DNA of 64,000 nucleotides from Linyphia triangularis (lineage: Eukaryota > Arthropoda > Arachnida > Araneae > Linyphiidae). The stretch covers positions 14,334,743 through 14,398,742 of the forward strand of contig OZ021727.1 of the NCBI GenBank assembly GCA_963978545.1, given 5' to 3'. Position numbers and translations under genes: made by a program. Below are positions 6,339-35,082 of this stretch, in pieces (position 1 is the stretch's first letter; every line of letters begins with the position of its first letter). The notes below the pieces were generated by a model. It was not told the DNA's origin. It saw nothing but the letters and a program-made list of their open reading frames with translations, and did no database searches.

Positions 6339-9300
6339 ATGAATTGCCATGGAATTATCGCTTTTCTGCTGGTTGGCCTAATCGTTTTCGGTAAGTCATT
6401 GTATACATTATTTATGCAAAGATTTTTTTTTTTGTGACAATCTCTTTACATCAAATCAAAATTGAAAAATGATTTACCAATTTATGGGCAAAGATCTCCA
6501 CTTCTAAGGAATAGTTTATGTATGATTGCATCCACATTGTGTCGTTTGTTAGAAAATCGAAGTTTAAAAAGTCAGAAATTGTCCAAGCATTTTGGGATGT
6601 TCCGATAGTATACAATAGATGGTAGCTTATTTGGAATTTCTGTCCTGTGGCTGTACTTCATTCGACGAATTGTCAGATTTAGTTGATTTGGACGTTTTTT
6701 CCCCCTCTCAATTGTGCATTGCGCAACAGGCTTTCTATTTATTGAATATTTTTTTCAACTATCGCAGAAATTTCATTTTCGTTTGCTATTCCAATCTACA
6801 TTAGAAAAATGGACAGTTCAATATTCAATTCTAAATGTTTCGAAAAGGAATTAAACATAAAAATTTCTGCTGAATGCGCTTTTTAAAAAAAATTTGCAAA
6901 CAAAGTTCCCTTGTTGGACTTTGGCGAGAAAACGATTCATTCGGCTCGAATTGAATGTGATGTCACTAGATCTCAAACAACTTGGCTTGAAATGCAGCAG
7001 CGAAAACCAGTTTAGAAAGTTTCTCACAAATCGCCCCAACCGGTATAGGATATGGCCTCTGTCTACCAAAACAACGCCAATTATTTGTCAGAAACCTCAC
7101 GATGACCATAGAAACGGAAGGATGTTTTGACATCACAGTATAGCGGATCGTTTTGAACGGATTGTAATTGGACGGGTTTTCGGCGAAATTTCTTTTCTTA
7201 ATACTTACATAACTAATTTAAAAAAAACAACAACTTTGGTTTGAATATTTAGAATTAGGAAGAAATTCTTCATAAATATAAACAAATTTCAATCGTTTTT
7301 AGAAAATGCGGGAATTTTCTATTAGTATACTAAAAAAAATCAAAGGTGAATAGCAATCATTACATTTTAATTTTAAACAAATAATTTAGATGCAGGTCTG
7401 GCTGTACTTGCTGTACTCTAAGAGTCGCCACTGCTTGAAAAGGGAGAATAGAGTACACAGAAATTTAAACACGTTGCGAAAATCCAAGAAATCTCATTTC
7501 TATCAGATAGAATAGGTTATTTAACAGATAAACTTACAAAATACTAAATTCCTTTAAGGAATCTCAAATGCCAAGGTTGTGTACGATTCCACTAATGTTT
7601 AATTATTATGAAAACTGGTATACATCATAAATAAGCGCTTCATTCGTAGATTGTTAGTTTACCATATATTTTTTGGTTAAGAATTACTGTACGGTCCCCC
7701 TTGGCGACTTTAAAAAAAAAATAAAAAAAATCGCCAAATTGAAAATGACGTCGAAAAGCTGTGTCGCCAAATTCAAAATGGCGTCAAAACACGTCAAATC
7801 CAAACTGTCACTATACTAAACTTCAACTTAACTAGACATCACTTAGACGGTAGATCGTGACAGTGCTCATAGGTATTTAATCCATTTTGGCGGAGTGAAG
7901 ACATAATTCTCGCCAAACCTTATAGCCTTTTGTTCTCTATAGGGTTGTGGTTTAGCGAACATTATGCTTTCACGCCGCCAAAATGGATTAAATACCTATG
8001 AGCACTGACACGATCTACCGTCTAAGTGATGTCTAGTTAAGTTGAAGTTTAGTATAGGAATGGGAAAACCTTGGCGACGGGTTGCCACATTCGGCGCAGA
8101 ATCGCCAACTTTCAAAAAGTCGCCAAGGGGGACTGTACATTAAATCTTACTATTTACTCACTGTTACTGTTACAGTCTTACTATTTATTAAAGTTGAATA
8201 TTCAGTCGTTAAAATATTATTTTCAATTTTTAAAATAAAGTCTATAGATTAATGCCGTCCATTTTACCTTGAAATGAAGTTTTAATGGTTTATGTATCAG
8301 TTAATAAAAAAAAAAGTTGCACAATTAGGTTATGAGAGTGATCACATATTTTATTCATGAATTTTAATTTCTAAGCTAATTGTTTTCAGTGATAATAACT
8401 CTTAAATTTTCATTACGTATTAATTGTTAAGTAAAAAAAATTCTAAACCAATAATTCAACGAAAATTCGACTGCGTTGTCTCTAAGTTCTTTTACAGTTA
8501 ATTAGTGATAATTTTGCTAAATTTGGAGAAAGTACCTTTAATATTGAGCGGAATTTTTTGAGAACTTTAAAGTTTTCCATATCTTTCGAATAACGAAGTT
8601 TCAAATTTGTGGATTCTTATTAATAGCTTACAATTAAAAGAAAAGTTCACCCGCGTAATTTTTAAAAATTAGTTTTATCTTTTACATTTTTAGAAAGTAA
8701 ATTATTGGCAAAATACATACTGTTTTATGAAAAACATTTTTTACGAATCATTGATTGGATGGGCCTTCAACTTCTGTTGCCATAAAAAAAAAAGAATTTC
8801 TCATGAATGTTAAATATTTACTGCAATTTCATTGAAAACACAACTACATCTCTAAACTACGTTAAAGATGTAGCATAACTAGCATGCACTAAATTCTTCA
8901 AAGTAAAGTACGTAATTCAATTACAACATAAAAAAGTGACCTTATCCTGTCATTAACTAAAGGAAAAAAAAGAAGAAAAAAAAAAGGGTTTGGCATTATA
9001 CTTTTTTTTTTTATTTTGAAATATTTGGTGATCATAATGAATTTGTTGAAAATTAATTTTGAATCTGTTAAGGATGAAGAAGTAATTTTAAGTTCTCATT
9101 TGTAAATTTGGTATTTTTCTGTTTTAGTTGAATGCCAGGATAAAAAACCAGAACCAAAAGTGGGAGAAGTAAGTAAACAATAGTTTCACAATTTTTAACC
9201 CGTGCATACAAAGTTGGAAAATACGGGGGATCGGTGGCACCTCTGACTTTTTAAAATTTTAGTGATTTTGATTTCAAATTCGTGTTCATTTTAAAGTTTC

Positions 9301-10796
9301 AAATGTCTTTAAGTTTCTTTTAATTTCACCAAATGCATGAGATGATAATTTGTTTTAATTATAATCTATAATTAATTATAGTTAAAACAAATTATCAGCT
9401 AGTACGTTATCCTTGTCTTCCCATTATTTTTATTGACAAAATAAACAAAACATTGGCAACAAAAATAATATATATATATTTTTTGGGGAATTTCATTTAT
9501 TAGTTTCTTTATAGGTTTTTATACAAGTTTTAATTAAAACAATAACTTTCTACACTTACAACGTATGCAATATTTTCTTGTTTTCTGCTGCAATACTGCT
9601 TCGAAAGAAATAAAATTTTGCACCAGATGTAAGTTCAATAATATAATCTAAATGATGAAATCGGAAGGGAAAATAAAACTTGGCTCTTTTGTTTAGTTTC
9701 CACATTTTTTTTCCTTTTTATTTCAGTGGTTCCAGTAGTTAGAAAATACTCAAATAACTTTTAATAACATTTTATTTTTAAATTTATATATAAGGAGGTC
9801 ATAAAAAAGCTTTGCCGATATATGGACCTCTAGCTTCCATTCCGTTTAACAGATCGAGATGAGATATCAGGTAAAGTTATTCAAAGGTATGAGCTCGAGA
9901 TTCTGTGAATGTCAACAAAATGGCGCTCACGGTTAAGGGTTAAAGTTACAGAAACTCGAAATTTTCGAATGGCAACACCTACTTTTTCCTATCGCAAAAT
10001 GTTCAGCTCAGGGTAAAACCATAAAGAGCGATGGAACGGTACGTGTATCACAAAAAACCGAGGCCGCTCGCCAGATATTCAGCATAGAAAACGGCTAAAA
10101 TTTCCTGTGATGGCACCCATGTGAACTTAGGCCTCTGTCATATGCAAATTTCCACCGTGCTCTCCGATCGTAATTTTGTTGGGTTGTTTTTAGTGCATGC
10201 ATAACGCGTCCGTTTTTCGTGATACAAATACTGTTCCAACTATCATTAGGGCTTTTGCATGCGCTGAGTATTTCGCGACAGGAAAAAGTAGGTGTAGCCA
10301 TTCGAAAATTTCGTGTTTCTGTACCTATAAGTCCATATAATGGTAAAGTTTTTTCATGACCACCTTGTATATAACCGCATCAAAAATAATTGCATAAGAA
10401 GATAGGGTGATTTTCAGAATGGATTTTTTTAATACTTACAGAATTTTAATTTTTATATTAGCCCATCAAACCATTCAAAAAAGGTTTAGCTAAAATGTCA
10501 AATCCTCTACAATCCTAAAAAAAAATTATTTTCTATTTAAACTTTACCGCGGTATGACGATTGTAAAAACGTGACCTACAAATCCCTCTCGTACTGACAT
10601 ATTACAAGAGAATACAGGGACACTCACAAAATAGACTTTAAGTATTCAGAAAAATCTAGTATTCAAATAAAAACTTCGACTAGATTGTTCGATTTTAAGA
10701 TCTTTACAATACGTTTAATTTTACAGATACTGATAATTGTTTTAATCATCATTTGACCTCAAGAACACTTTCAAAATTAACCTTTTCCACTTACAG

Positions 10797-10834
<38 letters not shown>

Positions 10835-11930
10835 AACAACAACAACAACCTATAATTCTTTTATTTTTCTTTTGCAATTTTCATTGATGCTCTATCTCTA
10901 GTAGCGAACATATGATCTCTAACTGCAGTTTCTAGATAGTGAATGCTCCGCTATCGACCTGAAACTGAAGATGGCTTAAACAATCCCCAGAGAGAATCAT
11001 ATTAACAATTCTCCTTCTAAACTAGTAAGCGTCTTTTAGTAACCAAGAGCGCAGCATTAGATGGGGGATCAGTATAGCGGTCATTGACTACACCTTCATA
11101 CAGAAAAGAAAATGTTAATGACCCAGAAGCTATAATTGGAGATCAGTGTAACAGACCAAGCAAACTCCATAAATATTTTGTGACACATTAAGAATCTGGT
11201 AACACTCACTTTCACTAAGTAGATGTTGAGTACTTTTGCTCTATAAGTTTGGGTTGAAGTGCTAAAAATATTTTTTATCTGTAAGTAAGCTTTCCGATCG
11301 TGAAGGCAACCCCAACTGTAGCTGAGATTTTTTAATTATATAATGCAAATTCACAATATTTTACATAATTTACAATAAAAAAAAAGTTAAATATTTTAAA
11401 TTTACGTAATTATTTTCTCACTCTTTTATATAACTCTATATGCATAAAGATTTATGTGTTATTATTAATTAGTTAAAAAAAAGTGACGGTACGTCGTACC
11501 AGCTCACAAAAAAGTACTGATACCCCGCCCCCTATAAGTATACTCCCTATAAATAATTTCTCACGATTAATGATGGAGCCAGTTACCTGTATTATCACTA
11601 CATGGTAGAAATCTGTTAGAATAGCACTGTGATACTAATCAGTGATATGTGCATATTCAAATTGCACTCACAGGCAAATATTAATTAAATATCCTTCCAT
11701 TCCAGCCTCAGTTCAGCTTGCAGGCAGCAGGCGGTGGGAACAACGCTAAGAATTTCGGACTCGGTTACAATGCAGGAGTTGGGACCAAGGTTTGGGAGAG
11801 CAAGAAAAAAGACATGAGCCTGGAACTCGGGGCCTCTTATGGTCAAGGAGTCGCAAGGGTGAACGGACACACGTACAAGTCGGAACCAACCTACGGATTA
11901 GGAGGGACCTTCAGGTGGGGAAGGAAATGA
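6339..11930 (+). CDS. Diptericin/attacin-like glycine-rich antimicrobial peptide precursor, copy 1
   Basis: Three exons: 6339-6390, 9128-9168 and 11706-11930, all with GT-AG introns (donors GTAAGT; phases 1 and 0). They encode 105 residues. Residues 1-20 form a signal peptide (MNCHGIIAFLLVGLIVFVEC), probably cut after Cys20 to leave an N-terminal Gln. Residues 21-31 are a short charged linker, QDKKPEPKVGE. Exon 3 encodes the glycine-rich domain, residues 32-105: about 20% Gly, net charge about +6, with a GGGNN motif, KVW near residues 59-61, SYGQG and the C-terminal TYGLGGTFRW. This order matches the G-domain of diptericins and the attacin C-terminal region, secreted peptides that act on Gram-negative bacteria. 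The ATG was chosen because it gives the signal peptide and lies 70 nt after the inferred start site. The introns (2,737 and 2,537 bp) contain MITEs. Family assignment is by motif; activity is inferred. Confidence 0.85.
6815..7225. repeat. Dispersed repeat R2, copy in intron 1
   Basis: About 410 bp homologous to 15605-16030. Shared passages include TTCAATTCTAAATGTT, ATAAAAATTTCTGCT and CTTGGCTTGAAATGCAGCAG. The matching intron of peptide gene copy 2 has no such block, so the insertion probably followed the duplication. Short frames inside it are not conserved between the copies. Class unknown. Confidence 0.7.
7692..8135. mobile_element. 444-bp fold-back MITE, TA target site
   Basis: Ends match over 23 of 24 positions: the left side reads TGTACGGTCCCCCTTGGCGA and the right side is the complement of the same with CAGT in place of CGGT. 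Both ends are flanked by TA (7690-7691 and 8136-8137). Inside are near-perfect inverted arms of about 88 bp (7811-7900 and 7970-8057) around a loop of about 70 bp, so the whole element can fold into a long hairpin. It is non-coding. TA duplication and size fit a mariner/Tc1-type MITE. It lies in intron 1 of copy 1 and is absent from copy 2. Confidence 0.85.
9792..10366. mobile_element. 575-bp fold-back element in intron 2
   Basis: Imperfect terminal inverted repeats of about 36 bp: AAGGAGGTCATAAAAAAGCT on the left and AAGGTGGTCATGAAAAAACT read inward from the right. Further in are strongly matching inverted arms (about 9948-10013 and 10258-10320, both containing the GGAAAAAGTAGGTGT core in opposite orientations). 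Flanks are TATATA on both sides, so the exact target duplication is unclear. No coding capacity. The orthologous place in intron 2 of copy 2 (about 33840) lacks it. Confidence 0.8.
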
Positions 11931-12110
11931 TAGTTCCTTTATGAAGATGTATTTCAACTCTGTTGGAATCCCTTACATCTATTGACTCTTTACCAAAAAA
12001 TGATAAAAAAAAACTTTTGCTACTTAAAGTAGACTTCCTATATTTGCATATCATCTGGTGTATGCTTTTATGTAACTAGAATATTATATTATTAAGTTTT
12101 ATATACAAAA

Positions 12111-12116
12111 AATAAA
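12111..12116 (+). terminator. Poly(A) signal, peptide gene copy 1
   Basis: AATAAA 181 bp after the stop codon, followed by a GT-rich CTTGTTTTTGTTTT tract of the kind that directs cleavage. The same arrangement follows copy 2. Confidence 0.8.
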
Positions 12117-12639
12117 CTTGTTTTTGTTTTATTTTCTTAGATTCATATTAATGTATAAGCACTTAGGGTATATATGGGTACAGAGGTTACAAATTGACAC
12201 ATTTCATAATTTAAATGCACGAAATATTATTTTAAAAATATATAATTAGCCATAAAACTGTATATTTTAATGTTCTCTCACTAAAACTGCATATGCATGC
12301 TAAAAGTAGATAGGTTAATTAGTTAAATTGGATCATTCATGGTGCAAGATATGAACTACGAGTCGAATGTCAAGGATCAAAATGTTGGAATCCAATATGT
12401 AACAATAAACATATTGAAAACATACATGCATAAAATAAGTACTAATTTGAAAAGTTATTATTTTATTATTTTTTCAACAGGTACTTTTTTATTGCAATCT
12501 TTTGTTCATAGATATCTTTAGTCCATATATTGGTATTAAAATCTGGACACTTTTGGTACAGTTGGGTACCAAGAATACAATTTGACACATTTCACAATTT
12601 AAATATACCAACAACATTACACATTACAGCATCGTTTTA

Positions 12640-13960
12640 TCTCTAGTTTTATCCTGACATCGTTTTATCTCTAACAAAAAAAAAAAAAAAAAAAAAAAAA
12701 ACTTGAGCTGCCATCGAACAATTAAAGAATGAAGTTCATCAAAGTGGATTTTGAAATTTCAATGGGTTTCAAACTTTTGAAATAATACAGTATGATGAGA
12801 AAAAGGCAGGATAAATAAGTACCGTCAGTAAATAAAGGATTAAGAGAGGATTTACGGGGATCTTTGATTTTTTGAGGGTTGGAGGATTTGATTTTTCAGT
12901 GTTTTGTCATGATGTTCACGGATGTTGAATGGTGTAGGGGGGGGGGGGGAGGGGATTTGTGTACCTAGACCCCTTTTTTCAATGCATAAAAAAAAAAAAA
13001 AAAAAGAGTTTCTGAACCATTTATAAATGTGAAACTGATATGCATACATCGTTATAGTAAATACTTTCCATTAGGATTAATTCAAATACTTAAAATAATA
13101 GAATCTGTCAAATAGAAGATTTTGATAAAAATTTCTCAAATGGCCCTAGATACAAGACCTCGTTATACCTAGGGTCAGTAGCTGATGTACCAAGGGTTAT
13201 TCTCCTTAAGTGAGGTTTCAGTTCATAATGAATTGAACACAAACATTCGCAGATGAATTTTATAAAAGAAACCATATCAAGTAATTATCAGCCATTGGTT
13301 TATCATATAACAACTATAATAAATTGCTATGTGTCAAATTATTAGTGAATTACAAGTATCTTCCTAACTTGAAAGACTGATTAAAAAAAAAAAAAAAAAT
13401 GAGCTGCATGTATTATCACTTTGAAGCATCAACAGGTTTTGGTTTTGGCAATTTGAACACAATAAGTAACTATGTGGCTCTAGGTACACGACTTGGTAAT
13501 TTCACATTAAATATCTTTTTATTAAAAATGCACATGGAGAACGGACTTATTTAAACATGTAATTTAATACTTAATTTTACAAACAAAATCATTTAATAGA
13601 ATTTAAAGAAAAGTATTTGACTTAATTTTATAAAACAATAAAAGACATGAGATGCAAAATCTTACTGTAGACCATACAAAAATGTTTTCCACTTATAACT
13701 TGCCACAGGTTTCTCCTCTAAGATTTCAAAATGGCTGCCAAAAGAGCAATTGGGTGTTGCTACTTACCCAAGTGAGTAAAAAAAACCCCTTAGAACTAAA
13801 CATTATTCAATAAAAGTGGGGTGGCTCTAGTTACACAAGTTTACCCTACTAACTAAATATAGGCTATATAACAAAGTAACTACAAATAAACTTAAAAATA
13901 TTGAATTCGAAGTAAATAATTACAAACACGTTTTCATTTAATTTAAAGAAGTTATTCGGT
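12640..13960. repeat. Downstream flank with degenerate ~340-bp repeats
   Basis: Parts (12640-12940 and about 13848-13945) match 36770-37120 downstream of copy 2. In between, a TGGCYCTAG-TACA motif returns at about 13143, 13471 and 13813, and AGCTGC after an A-run occurs at about 12707 and 13402, suggesting old tandem units of about 330-345 bp. There are no genes. Several A or G homopolymers break the region. Confidence 0.4.
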
Positions 13961-14028
13961 TAAAGAATTAATTAAATATTTTATTTTGGTTGGTTTCAAT
14001 TAAAGTTTGATCTTTTTAGGCATGTTTA

Positions 14029-15150
14029 CTTTCAATTACCCATATGTATAATATATACATAGGGTAATGAAAGTATTGTTATGAATTTTTCCACTGAGGC
14101 AATGATGGCACAGTTTTCACGGTTTAAAAGTATTTATTCTCTCTTCAGAAAACTCACAAAAATTTATTCACAGGCAACAGTTTAATTACTCTCAAGCTTC
14201 AACACAAGCTTCAACAAAAATAACTTCGAATTCAGCGATTATTCAAGCTCACTCCAATAGGTAAACAAAGCGATAAGCTTTCATCGAAATCCAAAGTCAA
14301 TCTGAAAACTTTCCCGTTCTCCAGTCTTTTTATATACAAGCGCGTGAGACATTCTCGAAATTTCCAGCCAATTCATCGGAAACGAAATATCTCGAAACTT
14401 CTCGAATGCTTTAGGTGTTGCCACCTTTTTCTAACTTGTATAATCGCTATTAATTAATAAATAAAATAAGATAAAAATAAATTACAATAGAATTTTGAAA
14501 TAATACGTCACTATTTACAATATATACAGACAGTTTGTGCAACAGTATAGCATTCGGTAAAAAAAAAAATTTCGATTTTTTTTTTTGCATTTCTCCGCAA
14601 TTTGGAACATCCAGATTTCAAAAAAGTGATATAGAAAAAATGTCTGTATGTGTGTATTTGCGTCTGTGGTCAGCATAACTTCCGAACAAATTGACCTACG
14701 TTGTTCAAATTTGGTATGAGGGTTAGTGGTGACCATGGGACCTACCATTAAGATTTTTGTCAAATGTCGCATGCGCATAAGGTTAGCTGCCATTGAAAAA
14801 ATCATGCTTTTCAATGATTGCTAAAAAACGGCTGAAACGATTTTGATCAAAATCGCTGTGGTAATGCCTCTTAAGGTGTTCTAAACATCCCTACCTCCGA
14901 AATTTCCGTAAAAATGTTTTAATGATGTAAAAATTTGAAAAACGAATGATTTCAATACTGAGTTCTCTTTCTTTGAGCATACCTCATTTTCTTCTCCCCT
15001 CCGTAGACCATTCAAGAATTATAGCAAAAAACATTGCCAAAGTGGCCATTTCTTCTAAATGATTGATGAAATAAAAAATAACGGTGAATGACACAAATCC
15101 ACGTCAGTATTATAGTGTAATTGAAAGCTGTGCGATGTTTCACACCCTTA
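14029..15150 (-). mobile_element. F1 dispersed repeat, copy b, split by a solo LTR
   Basis: Reads as F1 on the minus strand: the 5' end with TGTGCGATGTTTCACACCC is at about 15131-15149 and the 3' end with TTTCAATTACCCATATG at about 14030. The body includes the GCGCATGCG-type motif and the ACACACATACAGACA stretch. It is interrupted at 14077-14544 by an LTR insertion. With the insert removed it is about 650 bp, one of the two fullest F1 copies. Confidence 0.7.
14077..14544 (-). mobile_element. Solo LTR (468 bp) of an LTR retrotransposon
   Basis: Begins TGTTATG and ends GCAACA on the plus strand, so both strands run 5'-TGTTR...YAACA-3' style. It is flanked by a 4-bp direct duplication GTAT (14073-14076 and 14545-14548). 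Removing it rejoins the F1 sequence GCTATAC-TTTCATTACCC seen intact at 20135-20155. On the minus strand it has a promoter-like CTTGTATATAAAAAG (about 14324-14338) and later AATAAA motifs, the normal order within an LTR. No internal gag-pol region remains. A 4-bp duplication fits Ty3/Gypsy-like elements but does not prove the clade. Confidence 0.8.
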
Positions 15151-19937: not shown

Positions 19938-20158
19938 CACCGAAACCTTAATGGTAGGTCCTTGTGCTACCACCAACCCGCCCACCAAATTTGAGCATCG
20001 TAGGTCAATTTATTCAGGAGTTATGCAAACCACGTACACACCGACACACATTTTTTCTAGATCACTTTTTTGAAATCAGTATGTTCCAAAACGTGGAGAA
20101 ATGTAAAAAAATCGATAATTGTGTTTTAGTCTGAATACTATACTTTCATTACCCTATG
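19938..20158 (+). mobile_element. F1 dispersed repeat, 3' fragment (copy c1)
   Basis: Covers the 3' third of F1: AATGGTAGGTCC, AATTTGAGCATCGTAGGTCA, the CACACCGACACACA stretch and TACTATACTTTCATTACCC. This copy shows the uninterrupted sequence at the site where copy b carries the solo LTR. Confidence 0.65.
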
Positions 20159-20221: not shown

Positions 20222-20740
20222 CTAGATGTGTGGAACATCGCACAACTTTTAATGAATTATAATATTGGCCATTGCATTGAAATTTATGGTGTTATTTACC
20301 GTTTTCATATTTTCACTTATTTAAATGTAAATGGCCAGTTTGGTGAAAACAACAACAAAAACGCCCAGATGACGAATTTGGCAATTCTATTCGATAAACA
20401 TTACATTGGTCTTTCTGGTGAGTGTAAAAAAAAAAAAAAAAAAAAAAAAAATCGTTGGTGTACGGTGCTCAAGGACAGAGAACTCCGCGTTGAAGACATT
20501 CGTTTTGCCACTTTTTACGCCATCGAAGCATTTTTACGGGAATTTCGGAGTTGGGAATGTTGAGAACAACTTAAGAAGCATTACCACAGAGATTTTGATC
20601 AAAGTCGTTAGAGCCGTTTTTTAGTAGTAATTGAAAAAATGATTTTTTTTCAATGGCAGCTACCTTATGCGCATGCGCGATTTTGATGAAAACCTTAATG
20701 GTAGGTACCATGGTCACCATGGGTAATTGAAAGTAAAAGT
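20222..20740 (+). mobile_element. F1 dispersed repeat, 5' part (copy c2)
   Basis: Starts GTGTGGAACATCGCACAACT, passes the ATGGCCAGTTTGG and GAATTTCGGAG landmarks and the GCGCATGCGCGA motif (20670-20681), then jumps to the terminal GGGTAATTGAAAGTAA. The diagnostic 3' third present in copy c1 has been deleted. A 129-codon frame from 20174 runs through it, but its product is just F1 translated. Confidence 0.65.
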
Positions 20741-21789: not shown

Positions 21790-23966
21790 ATGGCTCCTCG
21801 TTTTTTGTGAGTATCTTTTAATGTTATTTATCAATGTAATATTATTTATTAATTGTAATAAAAAATAAGATCATATAAATAAATTATATTAAACGCACTA
21901 GTAATTATTAAGAGCGGCGTTTTTTTTTTTTTTTTTTTGTTTCATATCAGATGTATTCATATCAAAATATATTTTATCAAAATATATTATTTATACCAAA
22001 ATATATTTAGAATTAATATTAGAATTAATTTATATAAAAATATATTTAGAATTTTTAAATCTCCCTGATTTATGAAAACTTTTTTGCAAATCTAGAGGTC
22101 ACAATTGAGTTATTAAAAATAATTGGATTAAAATTATTAAGAACACGATATGTTTGTCAATAAGTATAAATTTATAAATCAATTTGAAGTTTGGAAAGTT
22201 TTTCACAAGACAAAAGATTTTTTTTTTTTTTTTTTTTTGTAAAATCATAAAGAACACGGTACATTTGTCAATGGGTGATTATTAATAATGATTCCAAGTT
22301 CTCAAATTGAACTTATTATATATATCTAAGTCTATGATATTTTATTAATGGGAAATATTTTAATAGCCAAGTTGGCATTGGCAACAATGCTTATAAAAAT
22401 TGTGTGTTATGCATTGTTAAACATAAATACAAGAATACTATTGCTGATATGAGAAGTAAGATTAAAAAAGCAGTAGGATCGAAATTGACGAAATATTTTT
22501 TGTTTCCCAATTTGGCTAATGGATTATTCGAAATTTAGAATGATTCTTGAAGTATGTAAATTCAACATGGCGTCTCTTTTCGTTTCTTTAATACAATCAA
22601 AACCCCATTTCTCAGAATTAATAGATCCCTTAAATAACCTAACATAAAACTAATATAAATGTTCATAGTAATACTATACCTTTTATTAATTTAAAATATT
22701 TCAAAGTAATATACAAATTACAGTATTATACAATACAATCGGTGTAAACTGTGAATTAGGAGACATTAAAAATAAGTTTATAAATGTCTCTCGATTTATA
22801 AGCTTTTGTGAAAATTTACCAAACGTTTTTTTAGATATGAGTTCAATATTCGCGAAATAATTTTTTAGTTTTAGTTCAAAGCTTACACTGGAAATAGCTA
22901 ATTTTGAAATATTTGTAGGGGTCCTGTTTTACCAATAGGATTCATAATACAGTTGGAAAATGGTTAAATTTAAATAGCAGGACTCTCCAATCAGCTTTTA
23001 AATTGTTGACAATTGCTACATATATTCCTTTTAAATCCTTTATATTTTAATTTTGTGTGTGTGTGGGGGGGGGGGGGTGCCGGTGTGGCTGGCTGCCGGA
23101 CAAACATGGGAGGCTTAATTAACCCACTTGCCGTCAACCAATCGGGTTGAAACTTGGTAGATAGATTTAAAGGCTATGACAATGTATGCCATGAAGAATA
23201 AGTCTCTTTAGATGTTTGGATAAGTGTGTAGAAATTTTTAAGCTTTAATACAGCTTTAAATAGCAACGAATTAAAAATAGATAAGAAAGAGTGTTATTTC
23301 TTTTATTTACATAAAACAATTCCATCACTTATCTTGTTTTTGAGGTTGGATGGCTCTCCAAATTCTGAAGTCAAGTTCGGCCGAATACTGCTTCTCGGCT
23401 TCGTTTTCTATCAAGGCATTGATACATGTTACTAACCCTGCATGTGTTTTCGCTTTAGGCGTTATCTTTTCAGATGCTGCTGCTGCGGGTCATCGGGTGC
23501 GGAGAAAACCACCGAGGCGGAGGTAAGTGATGCCCCACTGGATGTGTCACCCACTTCCAACTCACTGGCTACGGTGGCTAGTGCTACCTCTTTGGATATG
23601 GTGACTACTGTCGCCTCCCCGGATGATGAAGCTGTTGCTTTATCAACGGACGAGGAAGTCAGTGCACCATATACAGATGAGGTGGCCAGTGTCAACTCTC
23701 TGGATACGAAGAAAAGTGACACTTCTCTGGAAGAGGGAGAAATTCCTTTTCCTTCGGTTGAAGTGATCATTGTCTTCGATCCGGATGAGGTGGACAGTGT
23801 CATCTCTCTGGAGAAGGTGAAAAGTGACTCTTCCCTGAATGAGATGAAAAGGCATTTCTCTTCAGGTGAAGTGGTCATTGTCACCACTCTGGATGAGGTG
23901 ACCATTGGCGTCGTACTGGATGAGAAGGACATCGCTGACTGTCCAGTTGAGGATTCCAGGAATTAG
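21790..23966 (+). CDS. Candidate two-exon gene: acidic protein of 9-residue repeats
   Basis: Predicted exon 1 is 21790-21806 (ATG in a good context, then a GTGAGT donor) and exon 2 is 23474-23966 (acceptor TTTTCAG). Phases agree and give 169 residues beginning MAPRFLCCCCGSSG. After about residue 20 the protein consists of about 15 units of mostly exactly 9 residues with the consensus V-x-S-V-x-S-L-D-E, for example VASVNSLDT, VDSVISLEK and VVIVTTLDE. It is strongly acidic. Exon 2 is clearly GC-richer than its surroundings. The TAG at 23964-23966 may be a recent nonsense change: 29 further codons of similar character run in the same frame to TAA at 24056, followed by ATTAAA. A strong internal GAG-GTAAGT donor (about 23523) leaves the splicing uncertain. 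No known family is recognised. The antisense strand also stays open, as expected for a 27-bp unit, so coding itself is not certain. Confidence 0.4.
23536..23960. repeat. 27-bp minisatellite underlying the 9-residue repeats
   Basis: Most units are 27 bp and begin GTGG or GTGA and end in GGATGAG or GGAAGAG, for example those starting at about 23680, 23788 and 23869. Units are well diverged, unlike a fresh minisatellite. One unit is 30 bp and one 24 bp, both multiples of three, which keeps the frame. Confidence 0.75.
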
Positions 23967-24670: not shown

Positions 24671-26690
24671 TAATTCAACGTAAAAAGATATTTAAAATAA
24701 TTGCTCAAATGTCCAATATTTCATTTACTTAAAATATAATTGATTTAATTAAAGTTTTCTTCTGTAATTTTTAAATTTTTTTTTTACAATCAAAGTTTTG
24801 GGTATTGTGCCAAGCTTTATATGTTTTGTGTAATAGCTAAAGCTTATCAGTCTCATTAATGTGTGCACTACCAGGTGTCCAGTAGGGCTGGAAGAAAAAA
24901 ACCCTTTTCTTTCTTTTTGAAATTGTATAGTATGGAAAACGTGCCTTTATGGTAGATAAGTGAAAAAAAATAATAATATATATGATAATTTGTTTATATC
25001 TGTCGGTAGCGTGTTGATCTTACACGTAATGACATGATGAATACGATTTTCATAATTTTTCTAAAAATAGGAGATAATAACTGGAGAAAAAAATCAAAGA
25101 ACTTATATAACAACTAGCTATATGCATATTTTGTACAAAAAAGAATAAAAAGTATAAAAATATAAGATGAATTAATTAAGCAAAGAATACATTTTACAAT
25201 TTATTAGTAGCTCGTATTAAACTTAAAAAACTCCTTTCTATTTAATAAAAATTTCCATTGAAACAATAGCTTTTTTTGATTTTGCAAATTTTTATAGTTT
25301 GTAATGAAATATAGCCTTTTAATTGCCATTGGTTTCTTTTGGGAGTTTCAATTTTAATTTTCTTGAAAAATTTGATGTCGATCTCGAAAGAAGTGTAGTT
25401 CTTATAAAACCATCTCTTGGAATTGTGCTTTGTTCTACTAGGACACTGTTAAACCTGATTGATTTTCATTTTGAAGCCAAATTTCTAGCCTTTATAATTC
25501 TTTCAAAATTTAACTCTCTCATATAATTCCTTTCATTCATTAGCACACTCAAAAGTAAGCTTTTGGATATGCAAAAATGCATTTCCCTCAATTACTGAGT
25601 CAATGACTTTTAGCAAGTTTTCTGGCGGGAATCATGACGATATTATAATATAAAATGCATGTTCTAGTCCATATGTGGAGTATTTATTTTTCTTGATATT
25701 CAACCATACGACCATATACCATATACGACTTTAGGATAAAATAAAGTGAGATCTTGTGTCATCTGCTGGGTTTTCAATACTTAAATATAATCAGTGAACT
25801 CTGTTCGTTATTGTTAACCAATCTTGAATAGAAAATCTTGAATGAGAAAATGAGCCAATTCCATGAATATGGCCAGCAGGTACTGTTGATCTAGGCTTAC
25901 ATTTTTATAGTCAATTTCTGGAAGCCCCATTCAACACTTAAAATTTAACATGTGGGTGTTTCTCATATTTACCGAGTGTCCTTAAATTTAATTTTATAAA
26001 AAATAAGTTTATTTAATTTTAAAATATTTGGGTGATCAGAAATAGTCAGGGAAATATCAGGGATATTCATAGTTTTCCCTCTGGATATCCTGGTTAATTG
26101 AATTCATTAGTATCTTTAATTTATTCATTACTTAAGATATTCAGTTCTATTTACTTGTTTCATGTTACTCTGTTCAATAAAAATTTATGTTTTCATGTTT
26201 ATAATGTGTCCTTTCTTGTCTCAACACAAAAATATTTTAAGCGCTTAAGGTTTTACCCTTTTGGTGTTCAAATTTAGGCAGACAGCTAAACATTTGCAAT
26301 TATTCGAAAAAAGTAATTATTACGAAAAAGTGTGCGAAGTGTCAGTAATTGAAAAGTCTTAATTTAATTTTGAAAGCAGGAATAAATAACTGTGTCAATG
26401 AAAATAATAACTCTAAAATTAATAATATTCTCTAAATAAGCTATATGATGAGATTTGTTAATTAGGATAAAATAATAGGGAAAAATAAATGAGTACTTGG
26501 TTCTTTTTGTCAATCAAATATTTAAAGAATAATAATTTCCGTTCATTTGAATAATTTTAGTAGTTAGGGAACGTTTTTCTACTAATTGGAATAAAATTAA
26601 TAATGTTGTAATTGTTTTGGCCTTTCTCTTAAATATAAATTTTGGATAAGAATAATTCAGTTGAGAATCGCGTCGGGGCTGTCCTTTGAA
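24060..26690. other. Unannotated spacer
   Basis: AT-rich, with A-runs of about 20 or more at 24209 and 24640. No RNA gene, transposon end or protein motif was recognised. Confidence 0.4.
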
Positions 26691-26694
26691 AAGT

Positions 26695-27274
26695 ATGATA
26701 TGTTATTGTATTGATTACAAAATCTCAAAATTTTCAACTTGAATTCATTGGCAAAGTTAAATAAAAGTTATCAGATTATACAGAGCAGAAAAAACAAACA
26801 AACATGGGAAGTATGATGTCTATCCTGTTTCTGAATGTAACTTTGTGTTAATTTAGTTTAATGTTAGGAAGAGGACAGCCCAATGAGGAACGACAGTAGC
26901 CCACCTCCACGTGGTGTTCCTCGGACAACACTGTTGTACAACACGCAGTGGCTAAGAGGCTACTCTATCGAAACATAGTTTAATTCTTGATGTTGAGAGA
27001 AAATTCAGTTGCAGGTTATCTATTCATGAATATATGACAAAGATGATTATTTCCTTCCCTATGAAAACGGCCCTAAAGATATGGGGGGGGGGGGGATTAT
27101 AGTTTTTGTAAATATATTTACAATTTAATCAATATTAGAGATGAAAAATCAATAGAAAGAAGCTGCTATCTGGCATCAACGATCCTTAAAAAAGATTTAT
27201 TTTAGATTAATTAATTTAATGAATATTGCTTGTTTTGAAACATCATGATTTCAAATAAATGGTCTAGAAAACAT
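26695..27274. repeat. Block B, homologous to 35745-36495
   Basis: Shared passages: TGTTATTGTATTGATTACAA, AGTTAAATAAAAGTTA, GTGGTGTTCCTCGGAC (TTGATGTTCCTCGGAC in the other copy) and GTGGCTAAGAGG. In the second copy this block sits right after the 3' flank of peptide gene copy 2. Here it stands alone, 14 kb downstream of copy 1. No reading frame is conserved between the two. Confidence 0.7.
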
Positions 27275-27882
27275 TTCTTTCTGTGTGTACATAGTCAGCA
27301 TAACTCTCGAAAATATTGACCTACAATGTTTAACGGGGTAGTAATATAACGGTAATAAGCGGGGTAGTGGGGGCCATGGGACCTGTCATAACATTTTTCG
27401 TCAAAATTGTGCATGTGCATAAGGTAGCTATCATTGAAATAAAATCATGTTTTTCAACAATTGCTAAAAAATGGCACTAACGATTTTGATCAAAATCGAT
27501 GTGATAATACCTCTTAATGTGATATAAACATCTCCACCTCCGAAATTCGCGCAAAAATGCTATAAAGGTGTAAAAATTTGAAAAACTAATGTCTTTAACA
27601 CATAGTTCTCTTCCCTTGAGCATCAATCATAAACGATTTTCTCCTCTCCTCTGTTTTACTTACAAGAACGAGTAATGGAAGAATTATCACAAAGTACTTT
27701 GGAAAATTCGCTATTTTTAGCGTTTTTTTTTTTTTACATGTAAGTATTATCTCTAAACTGGCAATTTTTTCAAATGAATGAAAGTATGAAAATGTCAATA
27801 ACACTGTTCCACGTCAAATTTAAGTGTATTGACCCGTTTAATATTGTAATTGAAAGTTGTGCGATGTTACACACTCCTATTT
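27275..27882 (-). mobile_element. F1 dispersed repeat, copy d
   Basis: Minus-strand F1 lacking its 3' end. It begins within the CACAGACACACAC region and runs to the 5' terminus GTGTAACATCGCACAACTTT at about 27846-27870. It abuts block B exactly. Confidence 0.65.
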
Positions 27883-28085
27883 TTTTCCAATTTGGGAGTA
27901 TTTACTTTTTTGAAATGGCGCGAAATTCAAAAACAAATTATAAAATCGACAGCATTATATTGTTGGAGTTTTAAAAATTAAATTTTCTTTTTTTTTTTGT
28001 AAATTGTGGATGGAGAAAAATGCCCCACAAGAAAAGGACCGGCACAAAGAACTAAACTCACACCAGTTAATTGTTACCATTTTAA

Positions 28086-28791
28086 CTAGGGGTGTGGAAC
28101 ATCGCACAATTTTCAATTACTCTATATTACTGATGTGGATTTGTGTCATTTACTGTTTTTATTATATTTTTTATTTTATTATATTTTATATATTTCCATC
28201 ATTCACTTAGAAGAAATGGCCAGTTTGGCGATTTTTTTTGCGATAATTCTTATTCGGGTCTTTAAAAAAAAAAAAAACTCTTATTTGTGTCTTGGGAAAA
28301 AAAAAAAAAAAAAAAAACCACTTTCGCCAAAATCCCCATTTTGGCGATAATTCTTACATTATCCTTTCTTATTTGTGTGAAGTGGAGAAAATACGATCGT
28401 TGATGAGCTATGTTCAAGCAAAGAGGACTCTGTGTTGAAGGCATTCGTTTTCCAACTTTTTACGCTATCAAGGCATTTTTACGGGGATTTCAGAGGTGGG
28501 GATGTATAGAGTGCCTTAAAAGGCATTACCACAGCGATTTTGATCAAAATTGTTAGAGCAGTTTCTTAGCAATAATTGAAAAAAGTGATTTTTTCAATCG
28601 CAGCTACCTTATGCGCATGCACGATATTGATGAAAACCATGATGATAGGTCCTTGCGCCACCACCAACCCGCACACCAAATTTGAACATCGTAGGTCGAT
28701 TTGTTCGGGAATTATGCAGACCACATACACACACACAGATTTTTTCTAGATCCCTTTTTTGAAATCAGGATGTTCTAAATCATAGAGAAAT

Positions 28792-28824
<33 letters not shown>

Positions 28825-28893
28825 ATTTTTTTTTGGACCAAATGCTATACTTTTGTTACCCGATGTATGCATATGGGTGATTGAAAGTAAAAA
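28086..28893 (+). mobile_element. F1 dispersed repeat, copy e (fullest)
   Basis: About 808 bp from AGGGGTGTGGAACATCGCAC to GGGTGATTGAAAGTAAA, with every F1 landmark in order, including GCGCATGCACGA (28613) and TACTTTTGTTACCC. Several A-runs of 14-25 bp. It faces copy d head to head across about 200 bp. Confidence 0.7.
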
Positions 28894-29689
28894 GTAGTTA
28901 GTTAACACGAAGTTGTTTATGTTTCTATTAGCTTGTCATGGATGTATCGTTTAAATTTGACGTTAAACGTCATCCACAAACACTGAAGGTCATTGATTGA
29001 AACATTAGGTTACTCGTAGTTTAAAGCAAGCGTGTGTAATTTGAATACGCAGGGGGGAAAAACCTTCAAAGATATCATTACATTTCCATTTCACGTAGGA
29101 GATGGGGGGGGGGTAAGAGCTGATGCATTCATTGGATTGTTGATATGGATTGCAAATTAGTACGTCCCAAGTATGTTACTTATTCTTAGACTGGACTATT
29201 TTACTCGAAAAAGTTTTCTAATTAAATATATTTATAGGAGAGGGAACGCCGCTCCCTATCTAAAAAAGTAAGGGGTTGACGTTCCCCCTCCACTCCATTT
29301 TCCAATTTCGAAATGATGATAATTAGTAATAAAAAATTTAAAAAATTTGTGTAGGTACACCCTCTTTACATTTTTATTTCCTGGCTAACAATTGGTTAAA
29401 TTACATATTTTTCCTGCTAACAAATGGTTAATCTTCAAGCGATTTTGTGCCAAAGGGGTAAGGGGTATGTGAAATAAAAATATGGTTTTTATAAATAAAT
29501 CAACGAATTTCAAAACGATGTATTTAAGTTTACAGGAATCTAGACTATTGAGCTATATTCACAGTATAGCGTAATTAAAGAACAGTATTACAACTGATTC
29601 ATATGGCTGTTTGATCCTAATTTTTTTTAAGAATATTTTTTTTTAGTAAAATCCTTGAAAATGCACATTGCATTGATTAAATACGATAT
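28894..29689. other. Unannotated spacer
   Basis: No gene recognised. The C/G-rich GGGGGGGGTAAGAGC at 29105 and the GAACGCCGCTCCC passage at 29246 stand out in composition but match nothing else here. Confidence 0.4.
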
Positions 29690-30035
29690 AGATCAGTTTA
29701 TCTCTCTATATATAAAAACTAAAAAGCCCTCATTCGTCACTAATACTTCCACTTCCCTATAGAAAATTACTTTGAAATTTGTTACAAATGTCAACAAAAG
29801 CAAGCATAAAAAAAGTATTCTATTCCAATCTCGATTAACTAATTTTAAGGGACCGAAATGCTCCAAAATCAGGAATATCCCATTGTACCACTGGTACCAT
29901 GTGACTAAACTGGTACCACTTCCAGTGTAGACACACGTTTGAAATTTGATCAAATTCCAACCAGGGCAAGCTTAGGAAAAGTAAGTTATGCACATTTTGA
30001 TCAACCAACTTTCAGGGGTCGAAAAGAAGGATGGT
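29690..30035 (-). repeat. Dispersed relative of the 148-bp array
   Basis: On the minus strand this has two diverged tandem units that start TTTTCGACCCCTGAAAG and GGTCCCTTAAAATTAG. They carry TTAATCGAGATTGGAATAG and GTTGACATTTGTAAC, then the same terminal order as 1120-1236: GGGAAGTGG, ATTAGTGA, GAGGGC, TATATATAGAGAT. It shows that the 148-bp unit belongs to a dispersed element and was amplified only in the copy at the window start. Confidence 0.7.
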
Positions 30036-30599
30036 TTGGGATGCATACTAAAACAAAAGACATTTTTCTAAAGAAGTAATTTCGATGCTATGCCACATTG
30101 AAGGGGAGGAATATTAGAAGTTAAGAGGTGAAAAGTTGCAAATTTTTTTACCGCGTAACGTGCTGGATATCAGTTGACCTGCATCGTCAGATAAATGAGT
30201 GAAGCAGTCCACTCAATCAGTTTGTATTAAGTTTCTCTTTTACACCAGATTTCAATTAGATCTTGTTTAAAGAACAGTGATTGCGATCTTCAAAATTTAG
30301 CCTATATTCACGGCCTATATCACAAAATTTCGAGAGGCAACTGCCTCTCTTTGTCACCAAAAGTTGTTGCCATTGTATAATAAGTTTTTAAATTAATATT
30401 TCGAATAGAGTTCGTACCTATAATGGTTTGCGTGACTGTGTATAAAGTACAAATTTAAAAGAGAGAATATGTCATGTACATTAAAATCAGGTTTTTTTTA
30501 CCTTAAATCAGGTTTTTTTTAACCCTAAAATCAGGTTTTCCAAAATACTTTTTTTTTTTTTTTAAATAAACTTACATTAACAGTATGAAACATATTTTG

Positions 30600-30790
30600 T
30601 GCCCTTCTTTCTTTCTTATAAATAAAATATTTCAATTTTAAAGCTGTGCATCACCGTTTCAAAACTTCCAGTATATTTTATACAGCAACAATACCCGGTT
30701 ATCTGTAACAGCGACCAGTTTACAACGTCCCACATTAGGATTGGCCAATGTCGAGAGAAATTGGCCGGCATTAATGATTTTGAAAGAGAA
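30600..30790. repeat. Dispersed repeat R3, copy 2
   Basis: Homologue of 15160-15345 (see that entry). It ends just before the start of the segmental duplication at about 30825. The 30036-30599 stretch before it has no recognisable feature beyond three near-identical AAATCAGGTTTT motifs at 30484-30540. Confidence 0.6.
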
Positions 30791-31233
30791 GGACTTTTTA
30801 CAATCAACATATCAAAATTAATTTCAAATTATTTTGTCTTCTCCACCTCCGTAGCGCCATCTTTTGAACAAAACAAATCAACAGGTCATTCTTTACTTTC
30901 GAAGAACAAACTTTTATAGTGCTTAAATGAGCGTATAAAATTTTGTGCGTTACTGGTACGTGGGTGTAAAAATTTCCAGTGTTTCGAGAAATTTCATTCA
31001 TCGGTATTCCCCGTTTGCAATCAAAACAGCGTTGAGTTATCATTTAAAACAACTGCTCCAACTGCGTATATGCAAATTGCACACTCATCTCAGAAAAAGT
31101 AGCAACGTACTCAAATTGAAAAAAAACCTCCATCTGGTTAAAATTGTGTGACGTATCAAACACAAAATACGGATCAAACAATTCTACCTACCGGTTATGA
31201 GCCTGAAAACAATGGTTTCACTTTCTTTGTCAA

Positions 31234-31314
31234 GGGGAAGTACGCGGGAAATCCATAGAACGGACATTCCGCGGAAACAATCTTTCGGGATATTGGTTTC
31301 GCTTTTTCGGATAA
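31234..31314 (+). promoter_or_regulatory. kappaB-like and GATA cluster, peptide gene copy 2
   Basis: GGGGAAGTAC (31234), GGGAAATCC (31246-31254), GGACATTCC (31262-31270) and GATAA (31310) at almost the same distances as in copy 1. GGGAAATCC is a near-ideal Rel-site core; copy 1 has T in place of its first G. The fourth motif of copy 1 is altered here to GCGGAAAC. Confidence 0.6.
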
Positions 31315-31352
31315 TTTTAAAACTCGTGACTTCACAAACATAAAATGTAAGA

Positions 31353-31388
31353 TATAAAAGAGGGCTGCATTTTCAGTTTGTCTTCACT
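31353..31388 (+). promoter_or_regulatory. Core promoter: TATA box and initiator, copy 2
   Basis: TATAAAAG at 31353-31360 and TTCACTAA with +1 A at about 31386, 33 bp apart as in copy 1. The predicted 5' UTR is 70 nt, again equal. Confidence 0.75.
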
Positions 31389-31455
31389 AAAACTACACCT
31401 CACAGGTTGAATTTGACTCAAAAGTTTCTTTATTCCTCTAAAAGTTCCTTCGATC

Positions 31456-34400
31456 ATGAATTGCTATGGAGTTATTGCGTTTCTGCTGGTTGGCCTAATC
31501 GTTTTGGGTAAGTCAGCTTATGTATTATTTATGTAAAGTGTTGTTGATTTTTTTGGGGCAATTTCTTTTTCTCCCTTTATACCAAACTAAAATTGATAAA
31601 TGATGTATCAATTTAAAAGCGAAGACCCTCGCCTATGACGAATAGTTTACTTACGATTGCACATTGTGCTGTTTGTTAGAAAACTGAAGTTAAAAAAACT
31701 CAGAAATATTCCAACTTATTTAGAATGTTACAATTATGCAGAACACGGATGCAATCTAGAAAAAGAGAGAAAATGGAAAACTACAATTTAAGCACGTTGA
31801 AAAAACCTACAATCATGGCCTGACTTGCATCATTTGGGGCCATAGGCACATCATGATTCCGGAGCTCTATAAAAAAAATTGTGGAGGAGGGGTCTCAATA
31901 TTTATTGACAGTGTTTGGTGCAAGAGCGTTTTTAGTCTACAAGTTTGTCGATAAAAATTTTTTAAAGCTCAAAATCTCACAGCAGAAAATCAATCAAAAT
32001 GTAATTCACTTGGAAATTTAGCTCATGTTTATTTAAAATTACACTTCATTTTCATGCTTTATGTTCAAAACGTAATTGAAACTATTACAAAAGGACACTG
32101 GGTTCAATTTAACTTCAACAACTTTGAAAATTTTGGGGCCCCGAACCTGGGCTTTGTTGACTTGTGCGTAAATCAGGTCTTGCCTATGAAATACCATAAC
32201 TATCAGCAAGATATTAGATTATATAACAAATTAACTTTTAAAATGCTAAGGAATCTCATATACCTAGATTTTGTACGATTCAACTAAAGTTTAATTATTC
32301 CGAAGACTGGTACAAATAATTAATGAGAGCTTCATTCGTAGAGGGTTAGTTTAACCCATATTTCTTACTGATATTGAATATTCAATCGCTAAAATTTAAT
32401 TTTTGGAAGAAAGTCTTCCGACTAGTGTTGTCCATTTCACCTCGAAATGTAGTTTTAATGATTTGGGTATCAGATAATAAAAAACATATAAATTAATACC
32501 CAAACTAATAAAAATGACCAAATATTTTATTATTGAAGTTTAATTTTTGTAAGCTAGTTTTTTTCTGTGATAATAATTAGTTTAAACCACGTTCTCTAAC
32601 GACGTTGGACATTTAAAATATACTAAATTCTTCAAAGTGTACGGTAATTAAATATACATAAACAAGTGACTCTATCCTTTCATTTACTCAAAAAAGAAAA
32701 AAAAGAGAGTTTGAATGATAGTTTTTTTATTTTGAAATATTTGGCGATCATAATGAATTTATCGAACATTGGCTAATTTGTTTCTACAGAGTTGAAGAAG
32801 TAATTTTGAGTTCTTGTTATAAAATTGATATTTTTCTGTTTTAGTTGAATGTCAAGATAAAAAACCAGAACCCAAAGTGGGCGAAGTAAGTAAACAATAT
32901 TTTTACAATCTTTAAACTGTACACTCAAAGGTTGGAAATGGGGAGAAAGGGAGGAGGGGGAAGGGTCAATGAACTCCTCTGACTTTTTAAAATTTTACTG
33001 ATTTTGATTTCAAAATCTTGTTCATTTTGAGTATTGCCTTCTTAATTGTGACACCCAATCACCCTCACTGTGTATCCTGAATCAAAAATGAAAAATCTGT
33101 TTATTTGAATTCCACTACCCTCAAAATAGCATACGGCAGAATTATTGAAAGTATTTCATGTACTTAATTTTCAATATGACTTTTTATGATACCTCATTTG
33201 AAGTTGTATTGTCAGTAATTCAATCCGAAACCATAATATACCCTAATTATTTAGTAATTTATAATATTAATTTGGCCTCAATTCATATTCTTGCAAATGA
33301 ACTTTAAATATTTTTATATATATATCTGGTTGACTTTCTCAAAAAGTATTTTATTTAGGATTTTCCTTCGTATGTTAAGTAGAATTTTAAACAACCAACT
33401 TGGCTATTTAATTTCACTAAATGCATTGATAATATGTTTGAACTATAATCTATAGTTAATGTCGGCTTATCTTTAGCTTCCTTTTATTTATGGGAAAAAT
33501 AACCCAAACGTTAGTAACAACAATAAAATATTTCCTTTAGAATTTCATTTATTAGTTTTTTTTATAGCTTTTTATATAAATTATAGTTAAAACATTAACT
33601 TTTCTGCACTTACAACGTAAGCAATATTTTCTCGTTTTCTTCTGAAATACTGCTTCGAAAGAAATGAAATTTAGAATCACATGTAAATTCGGTAAAATAA
33701 TCTAAATAACGAAATTAGAAGGAAAAATAAAAATTAATAAATTAAAATTAATTAAATCCATATTTTTCAGTGATTTCAGTAGTTAGAGGAAACTCAAATA
33801 AATTTTAATATCATTTTAATTTCGAATTCATATCTATAACTCCATTAAAAGATAGTTACATAAAAAGATAGTTTGATTTACAGGCTAGTTTTTTATTTGA
33901 ATAGTTATAGAATTTTTATTTTTATTTCCTGAAGTCAAATTATCCACAATATCACAATACTAAAAAAATTCCTCTGAATTTAAATTTTACCGAGGTACAA
34001 CGAATATAAAAACGTGACTTATTTATCACTCCAGTACTGTCATGTAATAAGACAATACAGGGAAACACACACAATAGATTTTAGTTTTTAGATATAATAT
34101 TCATTACAGAGTATAATTTTTCTTTTTTTGCATTTAAGAAAAATCTGGTATTCAAGTAAAAGCTTGAAAGAGATTGTTCGATTTTAAAATCATTATACTA
34201 ATTCTGTTAATTTTACAGAAAGTGATACATTTTTTTATTCATCATTTGACCTCAAAAACACTTTCAAAATTAACTTTTTCCACTTACAGAACTGTAAAAA
34301 AAAAATATAATTCTTTTATTTCTCTTTTACAATTTACACTGATGCACTATCTCCAATAGCAATCATATGATCTCTAACTGCAATTTCTAGATAGTGAATG

Positions 34401-35082
34401 ATGCGCTGTTGACCTGAAGCTGAAGAAAGCTTTAACAATTCCCATAGAGAATTACATTAACAATTCTCTCCCAAACTAGTAAGCGTCTGTTGGTAACCAA
34501 GGGCAACCTATTAGATGAGGACACAATGACGACAATTCAATTGACTTCATTTTCATGCAGGTCAGAAACTGTTAATGATACAGAAGCTATAATTGGAGAT
34601 CAGTGTAACAAACAAAGCAAAACTCCATAACTATTTTGTGACACATTAAGAATCTGGCAACACTCATTTTCACTAAATAGATGGTGAGTACTTTTGCTCT
34701 AAAAGTAACTTCTCGCGATTAACTATGGAGCAAGTTACATGTACTATCACTACATGGTAGAAATCTGTTAGAATAGGACTGGGATACTAATCAGTGATAT
34801 GGGCATATTCAAATTGCACTCACAGGCAAATTCTAACTAAATATCCTTCCTTTCCAGCCCCAGTTCAGCTTGCAGGCAGCAGGCGGTGGCAACAACGCTA
34901 AAAATTTCGGATTCGGTTACAATGCCGGAGTTGGGACCAAGGTTTGGGAGAGCAAGAAAAAAGACATGAGCCTGGAACTCGGGGCCTCTTATGGTCAAGG
35001 AGTCGCAAGGGTGAACGGACACACGTACAAGTCGGAGCCAACCTACGGATTAGGAGGGACCTTCAGGTGGGGCCGGAAATGA
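31456..35082 (+). CDS. Diptericin/attacin-like glycine-rich antimicrobial peptide precursor, copy 2
   Basis: Exons 31456-31507, 32845-32885 and 34858-35082, with the same junctions and phases as copy 1; introns of 1,337 and 1,972 bp. It encodes 105 residues. Compared with copy 1, the signal peptide has three changes (His4Tyr, Ile6Val, Phe17Leu), the exon 2 linker is identical, and the 74-residue glycine-rich domain differs only at residue 50 (Leu to Phe, giving NFGFGYNAG). All splice sites, the reading frame, TATA box and poly(A) signal are intact, so both copies look functional and would release almost the same mature peptide. The likely role is a secreted antibacterial effector induced through Rel factors; this is inferred from the family. 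Confidence 0.87.

Follow-up and report, generated by a model that had tools for sequence, protein, structure and literature searches.

Two three-exon genes for diptericin-type peptides in the spider Linyphia triangularis: probable paralogues of a spider diptericin gene

As well-studied antimicrobial peptides of flies, diptericins have a simple layout, namely a signal peptide, a short Pro-containing leader and a single glycine-rich (G) domain, with a mature peptide of ~80-100 aa and no cysteine. Attacins are defined by two glycine-rich domains behind a pro-domain that closes with a furin site, R-X-(R/K)-R, in the available part of one paper (PMC11180110), and these G1 and G2 domains are encoded by exons 2 and 3 according to the accessible text of another, where attacin, sarcotoxin II and diptericin are further said to derive, perhaps, from one ancestral exon (PMC7924397). 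Beyond flies, diptericins of springtails have been presented together with a tree comprising Diptera, “Myriapoda” and Chelicerata clades (PMC10051947, 2023), the non-hexapods in the accessible legend being two Armadillidium species and the spider Araneus ventricosus. In the accessible portion of that paper, the text speaks of Myriapoda diptericins and the legend has Armadillidium, an isopod crustacean, and no recognised myriapod, apparently a labelling slip. Here, a window, i.e., the whole stretch of 64,000 nucleotides from the spider Linyphia triangularis (assembly GCA_963978545.1, contig OZ021727.1, positions 14,334,743 to 14,398,742, forward strand), was analysed, in which two genes with three exons and GT-AG introns lie in direct orientation at 6339-11930 (gene 1) and 31456-35082 (gene 2) and are very likely two functional paralogues of a spider diptericin gene. 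A preliminary description made from the letters of this DNA had seen in them a possible first extension of the family outside insects, a view that has to be given up since springtail, Araneus ventricosus and pill-bug sequences already figure in the tree of PMC10051947, as far as its legend is accessible. As such, the peptide is a new family member with similar genes known in other spiders and is not new as a kind; no paper testing a spider diptericin was found in the literature searched, coverage of subscription journals being limited. Its value resides in clean gene models for an immune-type peptide of which the spider homologues are mostly uncharacterized in databases, and in reciprocal profile tests tying it to the fly peptide.

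Gene models and peptide products

In gene 1, exon 1 (6339..6390, plus strand), opening with the ATG at 6339 and closing at a GTAAGT donor, codes for the bulk of the signal peptide, exon 2 (9128..9168, plus strand) for the end of the signal peptide and a short Pro/Lys linker (VECQDKKPEPKVGE), and exon 3 (11706..11930, plus strand) for the entire glycine-rich diptericin-type domain and the stop. In gene 2, also on the plus strand, the bulk of the signal peptide lies in exon 1 (31456..31507, ATG at 31456), followed by exon 2 (32845..32885) and by exon 3 (34858..35082) with the glycine-rich diptericin-type domain and the stop. The last exons sit in open frames at 11685-11930 and 34837-35082, and each of the four introns runs from a GTAAGT donor to a pyrimidine-rich AG acceptor. 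For the 41-base middle exon, phase-compatible AG-to-GT stretches of 11-130 bases were enumerated at each locus (147 and 78 candidates) before any homologue was seen, and paired when of equal length, at least 23 bases long and >60% alike; among the four resulting pairs, only 9128-9168/32845-32885 combined peptide identity with a GTAAGT donor at either locus, a nested shorter variant having a weaker donor (GTGGGA/GTGGGC). A signal peptide at the place of exon 1 is present in 16 of the 19 aligned spider proteins, which cross both junctions from there on; homologues have residues similar to those of exon 2, the linker coded by this exon being variable in some of them.

Upstream, the promoter alignment places a TATAAAAG box (TATA box) ~100 bases 5' of the ATG of gene 1 (6236..6243, plus strand) and its counterpart at the same distance from the ATG of gene 2 (31353-31360). 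By alignment and by counts against shuffles, a conserved promoter block of gene 1 (6098..6158, plus strand) holds weakly indicated candidate immune-type motifs, namely GAAAGTGAAA and GGATTTCC (minus strand) and TTCCGGGGAA, and its counterpart in gene 2 lies at 31216..31276 (plus strand) with motifs equally weakly indicated. Neither promoter contains an exact NF-kappaB site (GGGRNNYYCC); sites with one mismatch number 2 and 3 for ~0.4 expected from mononucleotide shuffles, counts to be qualified by the promoters being mutual copies, by palindromes counted on both strands and by motifs picked post hoc. Downstream, a polyadenylation signal, AATAAA, is read in the sequence ~180 bases 3' of the stop of gene 1 (12111..12116, plus strand) and of gene 2 (35260..35265, plus strand).

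Both products are 105 aa long and differ at four residues, i.e., H4Y, I6V, F17L and L50F, the last being the sole difference within the 85-residue mature part if cleavage takes place after Cys20, as the -3/-1 rule predicts. The coordinates, the lengths and the Leu50Phe replacement of the preliminary description are thereby confirmed by the exon models. In the precursor, residues 1-20 form a signal-peptide-like start and 21-31 a short Pro/Lys linker, after which comes a single glycine-rich domain lying wholly in exon 3; the mature peptide is cationic (charge ~+5.8 at pH 7, isoelectric point ~9.7), of ~9.1 kDa and cysteine-free. This is the diptericin layout in all its elements and, as such, the short linker ahead of the domain, contrasted in the preliminary description with the long propeptide of attacins, is no peculiarity. 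Translation reveals neither a furin site R-X-(R/K)-R nor more than one glycine-rich domain, which sets attacins apart by description; their distant relation through the G domain is taken from the literature only, in a source available in part (PMC7924397). The idea of one ancestral exon fits the spider gene, because the whole domain stands on one exon behind a phase-0 intron. Placement with other glycine-rich peptides of spiders, e.g., acanthoscurrin and ctenidin, would call for a Gly-repeat sequence.

Relationship to spider, springtail and fly proteins

A single-sequence search (E up to 1) returned 20 proteins, all spider-labelled and from ten genera, with 64-79% identity across 68-100% of the query. 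When 5.8 billion proteins were searched with a profile (E up to 10), 31 matched, 29 of them spider-labelled (ten genera, the chimeric P0020 included), in agreement with the chelicerate host considered in the preliminary description and pointing to a probable araneomorph; of the other two, one belongs to the springtail Allacma fusca (E 1.8e-17) and one to the horseshoe crab Tachypleus tridentatus (E 5), and no bacterial protein was among the 31. The genera concerned are Parasteatoda, Argiope, Araneus, Caerostris, Nephila, Trichonephila, Larinioides, Stegodyphus, Uloborus and Oedothorax. These homologues resemble the window products in length, signal peptide, linker and the whole G domain; most are recorded as “uncharacterized,” “hypothetical” or “unnamed,” and three from Araneus ventricosus bear the UniRef name “Attacin C-terminal domain-containing.” Nine further spider rows, matched by the profile only, show greater divergence or are partial. 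The chimeric gene model P0020 was left out of the 19-protein spider alignment and all later sets, and the partial P0027 out of all local sets. The Trichonephila proteins P0026, P0028 and P0030 form a divergent spider subfamily with LYENKKKN in place of the VWES motif; they reach just 14-17 bits with the fly profile, and the UniRef name of P0026 is “PorT family.”

Kinship with flies and springtails was assessed with three profiles built separately from 24 spider, 45 fly-set (ten rows being unnamed records) and 4 springtail proteins, each then tested against the other two sets and against 3650 shuffled decoys; scores were also obtained for P0031, from Tachypleus, and for P0026, P0028 and P0030, none of which entered profile building. 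The fly profile gives the window peptides 35.5 and 37.0 bits and none of the 24 spider proteins less than 26.2, all of them at E <1e-3, its top decoy among the 3650 reaching 9.3 bits. In the reverse direction, the spider profile, with the window left out, finds 32 of the 45 fly-set proteins and all four Allacma proteins at E <1e-3 (scaled to 20,000 sequences), its best decoy scoring 10.3 bits and its weakest fly-set protein 8.4 bits. Profile against profile, hhalign scores the spider proteins plus window and the fly set at 79.1 over 96 columns; reversing the fly profile yields 15.9, and none of 50 column shuffles exceeds 23.5. By such comparison of sequences the spider domain is shown to be homologous to those of fly diptericins and springtails, and homologue searches, reciprocal profiles and hhalign all sustain the diptericin-like identity first proposed. 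The horseshoe crab protein scores highest with the springtail profile (31.8 bits), less with the spider profile (25.2) and only 17.1 with the fly profile.

At the level of motifs, the four unnamed proteins of Allacma fusca, a species outside PMC10051947, share with the window a PQFSLQ-like start, a glycine run, KVW-x-S, S-x-P and a G-rich C-terminus; they score 74.5-89.7 bits with the spider profile and also score well with the fly profile. They differ by a longer alanine-rich leader ahead of the domain and by NGRHS (three proteins) or SGRHS (one), a motif lacking in spiders. Drosophila diptericin A and Protophormia diptericin D are like the window products in signal peptide, short Pro-containing leader and one G domain, and fly diptericins and window have W-x-S, Y-x-Q and S-x-P in common; where fly diptericins exhibit NGRH and QHLGGPYGNSRP, however, the window has KKKD and GQGVARVNGHTYKSEP.

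Concerning descent, an unrooted tree of 31 proteins was calculated from 12 of the 24 spider proteins, 13 of the 45 fly-set proteins, the four Allacma proteins (first 120 residues) and the window pair, the Tachypleus and divergent Trichonephila rows being omitted. One branch with 100/100 support sets off the spiders (14 with the window) and another (100/100) the flies (13), the springtails standing between them. Within this sampling of spiders, flies and springtails, the sequences are compatible with vertical descent, losses included, from an ancestral arthropod. An earlier tree lacking flies had drawn the springtails within the spiders (86/54); midpoint-rooted with no outgroup and omitting P0020, P0022, P0024, P0027, P0028, P0030 and P0031, it is uninformative on descent. 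Adding the flies brought the spiders together on a single side of a branch, and horizontal transfer was dropped as an explanation. The presence of springtails and probably of a horseshoe crab in the family makes diptericins appear to be an ancient weapon of arthropods rather than an invention of flies.

Regarding structure, AlphaFold predicts for exon 3, aligned with spider sequences of which the gene 2 exon 3 protein is one row, strands at 2-13, 16-31, 37-52 and 62-71 and a short one at 55-58 (predicted local distance difference test, pLDDT, 86; predicted template-modelling score, pTM, 0.54). For blowfly diptericin D, aligned with 32 of the 45 fly-set proteins, the strands fall at 36-44, 48-61, 67-79 and 89-98 (pLDDT 85.5; pTM 0.53). 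Strand order is similar in both models, which derive from separate alignments with pTM of 0.53-0.54 and were compared by order and not by superposition; the order suggests that the strands would form a meander. No solved structure was matched by sequence (best E 6.4), Foldseek returned no match at E up to 0.001, and a second structural comparison gave middling Z values, peaking at 6.8 (spider model) and 6.7 (fly model). Its high rows, i.e., gasdermin and complement pores, capping protein and methyltransferases, are so mixed that no fold is claimed. Beta-type amphipathic alternation is not significant in the window peptide (p 0.26), in five other spider proteins (0.07-0.27) or in two Allacma proteins (0.12-0.15), and p is <0.05 in two of three fly proteins.

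Duplication, function and rival explanations

The duplicated stretches, 5696-12620 and 30782-35745, are separated by ~18 kb of repeat-rich DNA and the gene copies start 25 kb apart; the “tandem pair” of the preliminary description thus holds as a direct repeat, the word tandem being loose. Window self-comparison resolves six direct blocks, namely 5696-6586 versus 30782-31714 (77%), 7488-7674 versus 32188-32366 (75%), 8888-9292 versus 32622-33028 (76%), 9319-9792 versus 33407-33836 (73%), 10370-11248 versus 33835-34706 (72%), and 11547-12620 versus 34699-35745 (86%). Identity between copies amounts to 96% in exon 3 (217/225), 89% at the end of intron 2 and 94% in the 3' untranslated region. Of 17 differing codons, 13 are synonymous, and the mature region accounts for 10 synonymous changes and 1 nonsynonymous change (synonymous divergence, dS, 0.204; nonsynonymous divergence, dN, 0.005; Fisher p 1.2e-6). 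With a dS of ~0.20 for a dN of 0.005, the mature peptide is under strong purifying selection, and the duplication offers a testable case of a mature peptide nearly frozen with synonymous sites ~20% diverged. Since the window proteins pair in the trees without flies (97/96) and with flies (99/99), the duplication is, among the species sampled, the host's own, a lineage-specific event separate from the other spider homologues. Within exon 3, a 110-base run (11775-11884) is identical to the gene 2 copy, without any synonymous change over 36 codons and ~24 synonymous sites; at the gene-wide rate this has a chance of ~0.008, for a stretch picked after looking, and partial gene conversion is possible.

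By homology, the products would be antibacterial effectors against Gram-negative bacteria. The mature peptide would be secreted into haemolymph or gut, would meet the lipopolysaccharide-rich surface of Gram-negative bacteria and might act on the outer membrane via its beta-stranded domain. Attacin reportedly binds lipopolysaccharide and triggers inhibition of outer-membrane protein synthesis, as the title of a 1998 paper has it. The mature peptides being all but identical, the lineage-specific duplication would most likely raise dose. Expression, inducibility and antibacterial action are what we infer for the window genes; in the accessible part of PMC9768628, spiders are described as keeping antimicrobial peptides in haemocyte granules and possibly expressing them constitutively, diptericin not being mentioned by name there.

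Several observations weigh against functional diptericin paralogues. Glycine makes up 16 of the 85 mature residues (19%), below the 21-25% given for springtail diptericins in the available text of PMC10051947. With the spider profile, 13 of the 45 fly-set proteins stay above E 1e-3. The spider model has a pTM of 0.54, and one of the five models a pLDDT of only 55. From the accessible part of PMC9768628, spiders seem to be without several signalling-pathway genes, which supports constitutively expressed antimicrobial peptides, so that induction as in flies cannot be taken for granted. Neither the window nor the aligned spider proteins contain the fly motifs NGRH or QHLGGPYGNSRP, and QHLGGPYGNSRP is lacking in all four Allacma proteins too; both motifs are taken as marks of the dipteran branch, the window belonging to the wider family and not to the fly diptericins. 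Lastly, the comparison with Pfam Attacin_C (PF03769) suggested in the preliminary description yielded no match, either with exon 3 (E up to 10) or with the full product (E up to 1). This looks like a limit of the Pfam model, which misses or under-scores real diptericins and is therefore uninformative on membership: Drosophila erecta diptericin A (16.4 bits) and Protophormia diptericin D (25.5 bits) both remain below its cut-off of 28.8 bits.

That same Pfam result, together with a sub-threshold DUF481 match (exon 3, E 0.034) as the only one obtained, could speak for a convergent glycine-rich beta protein resembling diptericins in composition without any kinship, but this is highly improbable, for shuffles of equal composition reach 9.3 bits where the window peptides reach 35-37 with the fly profile, column shuffles 23.5 against 79.1, and the Allacma proteins score well with both profiles. 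Kinship granted, diptericin-derived genes might by now have taken on a different role in spiders, e.g., that of a signalling peptide or of a secreted protein associated with gland, silk or venom: a Nephila pilipes homologue bears the toxin-style UniRef name BLTX816, and Drosophila DptB is required for memory formation in the accessible text of PMC6857651. Such a change of role appears unlikely, the BLTX816 label being a name only and the domain being 64-79% identical across ten spider genera, with diptericin profile similarity and strand layout retained. It is equally doubtful that one copy is expressed and the other a silent duplicate, which would agree with a functional spider diptericin for the expressed copy. 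A silent duplicate would suit the setting, in which the copies lie among repeats with their starts 25 kb from each other and each window end holds a satellite, but TATA box, intact frame, splice sites and AATAAA are found in both copies, and there is a strong deficit of nonsynonymous change, a pattern that selection on one copy plus conversion could mimic.

Other features of the window

Satellites occupy both ends of the window, i.e., a 148-base unit in 7.8 copies (98% match) at 1-1148, from the window edge, and a 368-base unit in ~21 copies at 56105-64000, to the window end, with related units from 53941. A CCAA tetranucleotide array at 3092-4123 (258 copies, 98% match), with several frames open on either strand, gives rise to spurious PTNQ and GWLV open reading frames (ORFs). 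Dispersed direct and inverted copies of ~170-520 bases with 69-86% identity (14540-14987, 28403-28855, 20443-20719, 27231-27735, 19943-20158 and 4474-4863) are probably short mobile elements, lying between both genes and 5' of gene 1. An Rfam match to a hepatitis delta virus (HDV)-like ribozyme stands at 26885-26964 (48.4 bits, cut-off 44); the stretch bearing it, 26846-27046, is perhaps part of a mobile element, as it recurs at 36087-36286 (76%). The ORF at 23436-23966 has 176 codons, is acidic with a 108-base internal repeat and is without a Pfam match above cut-off. On the minus strand, an ORF of 414 codons at 44488-45732 has no Pfam match at E up to 1 and many hydrophobic segments, a feature reminiscent of arthropod gustatory receptors.

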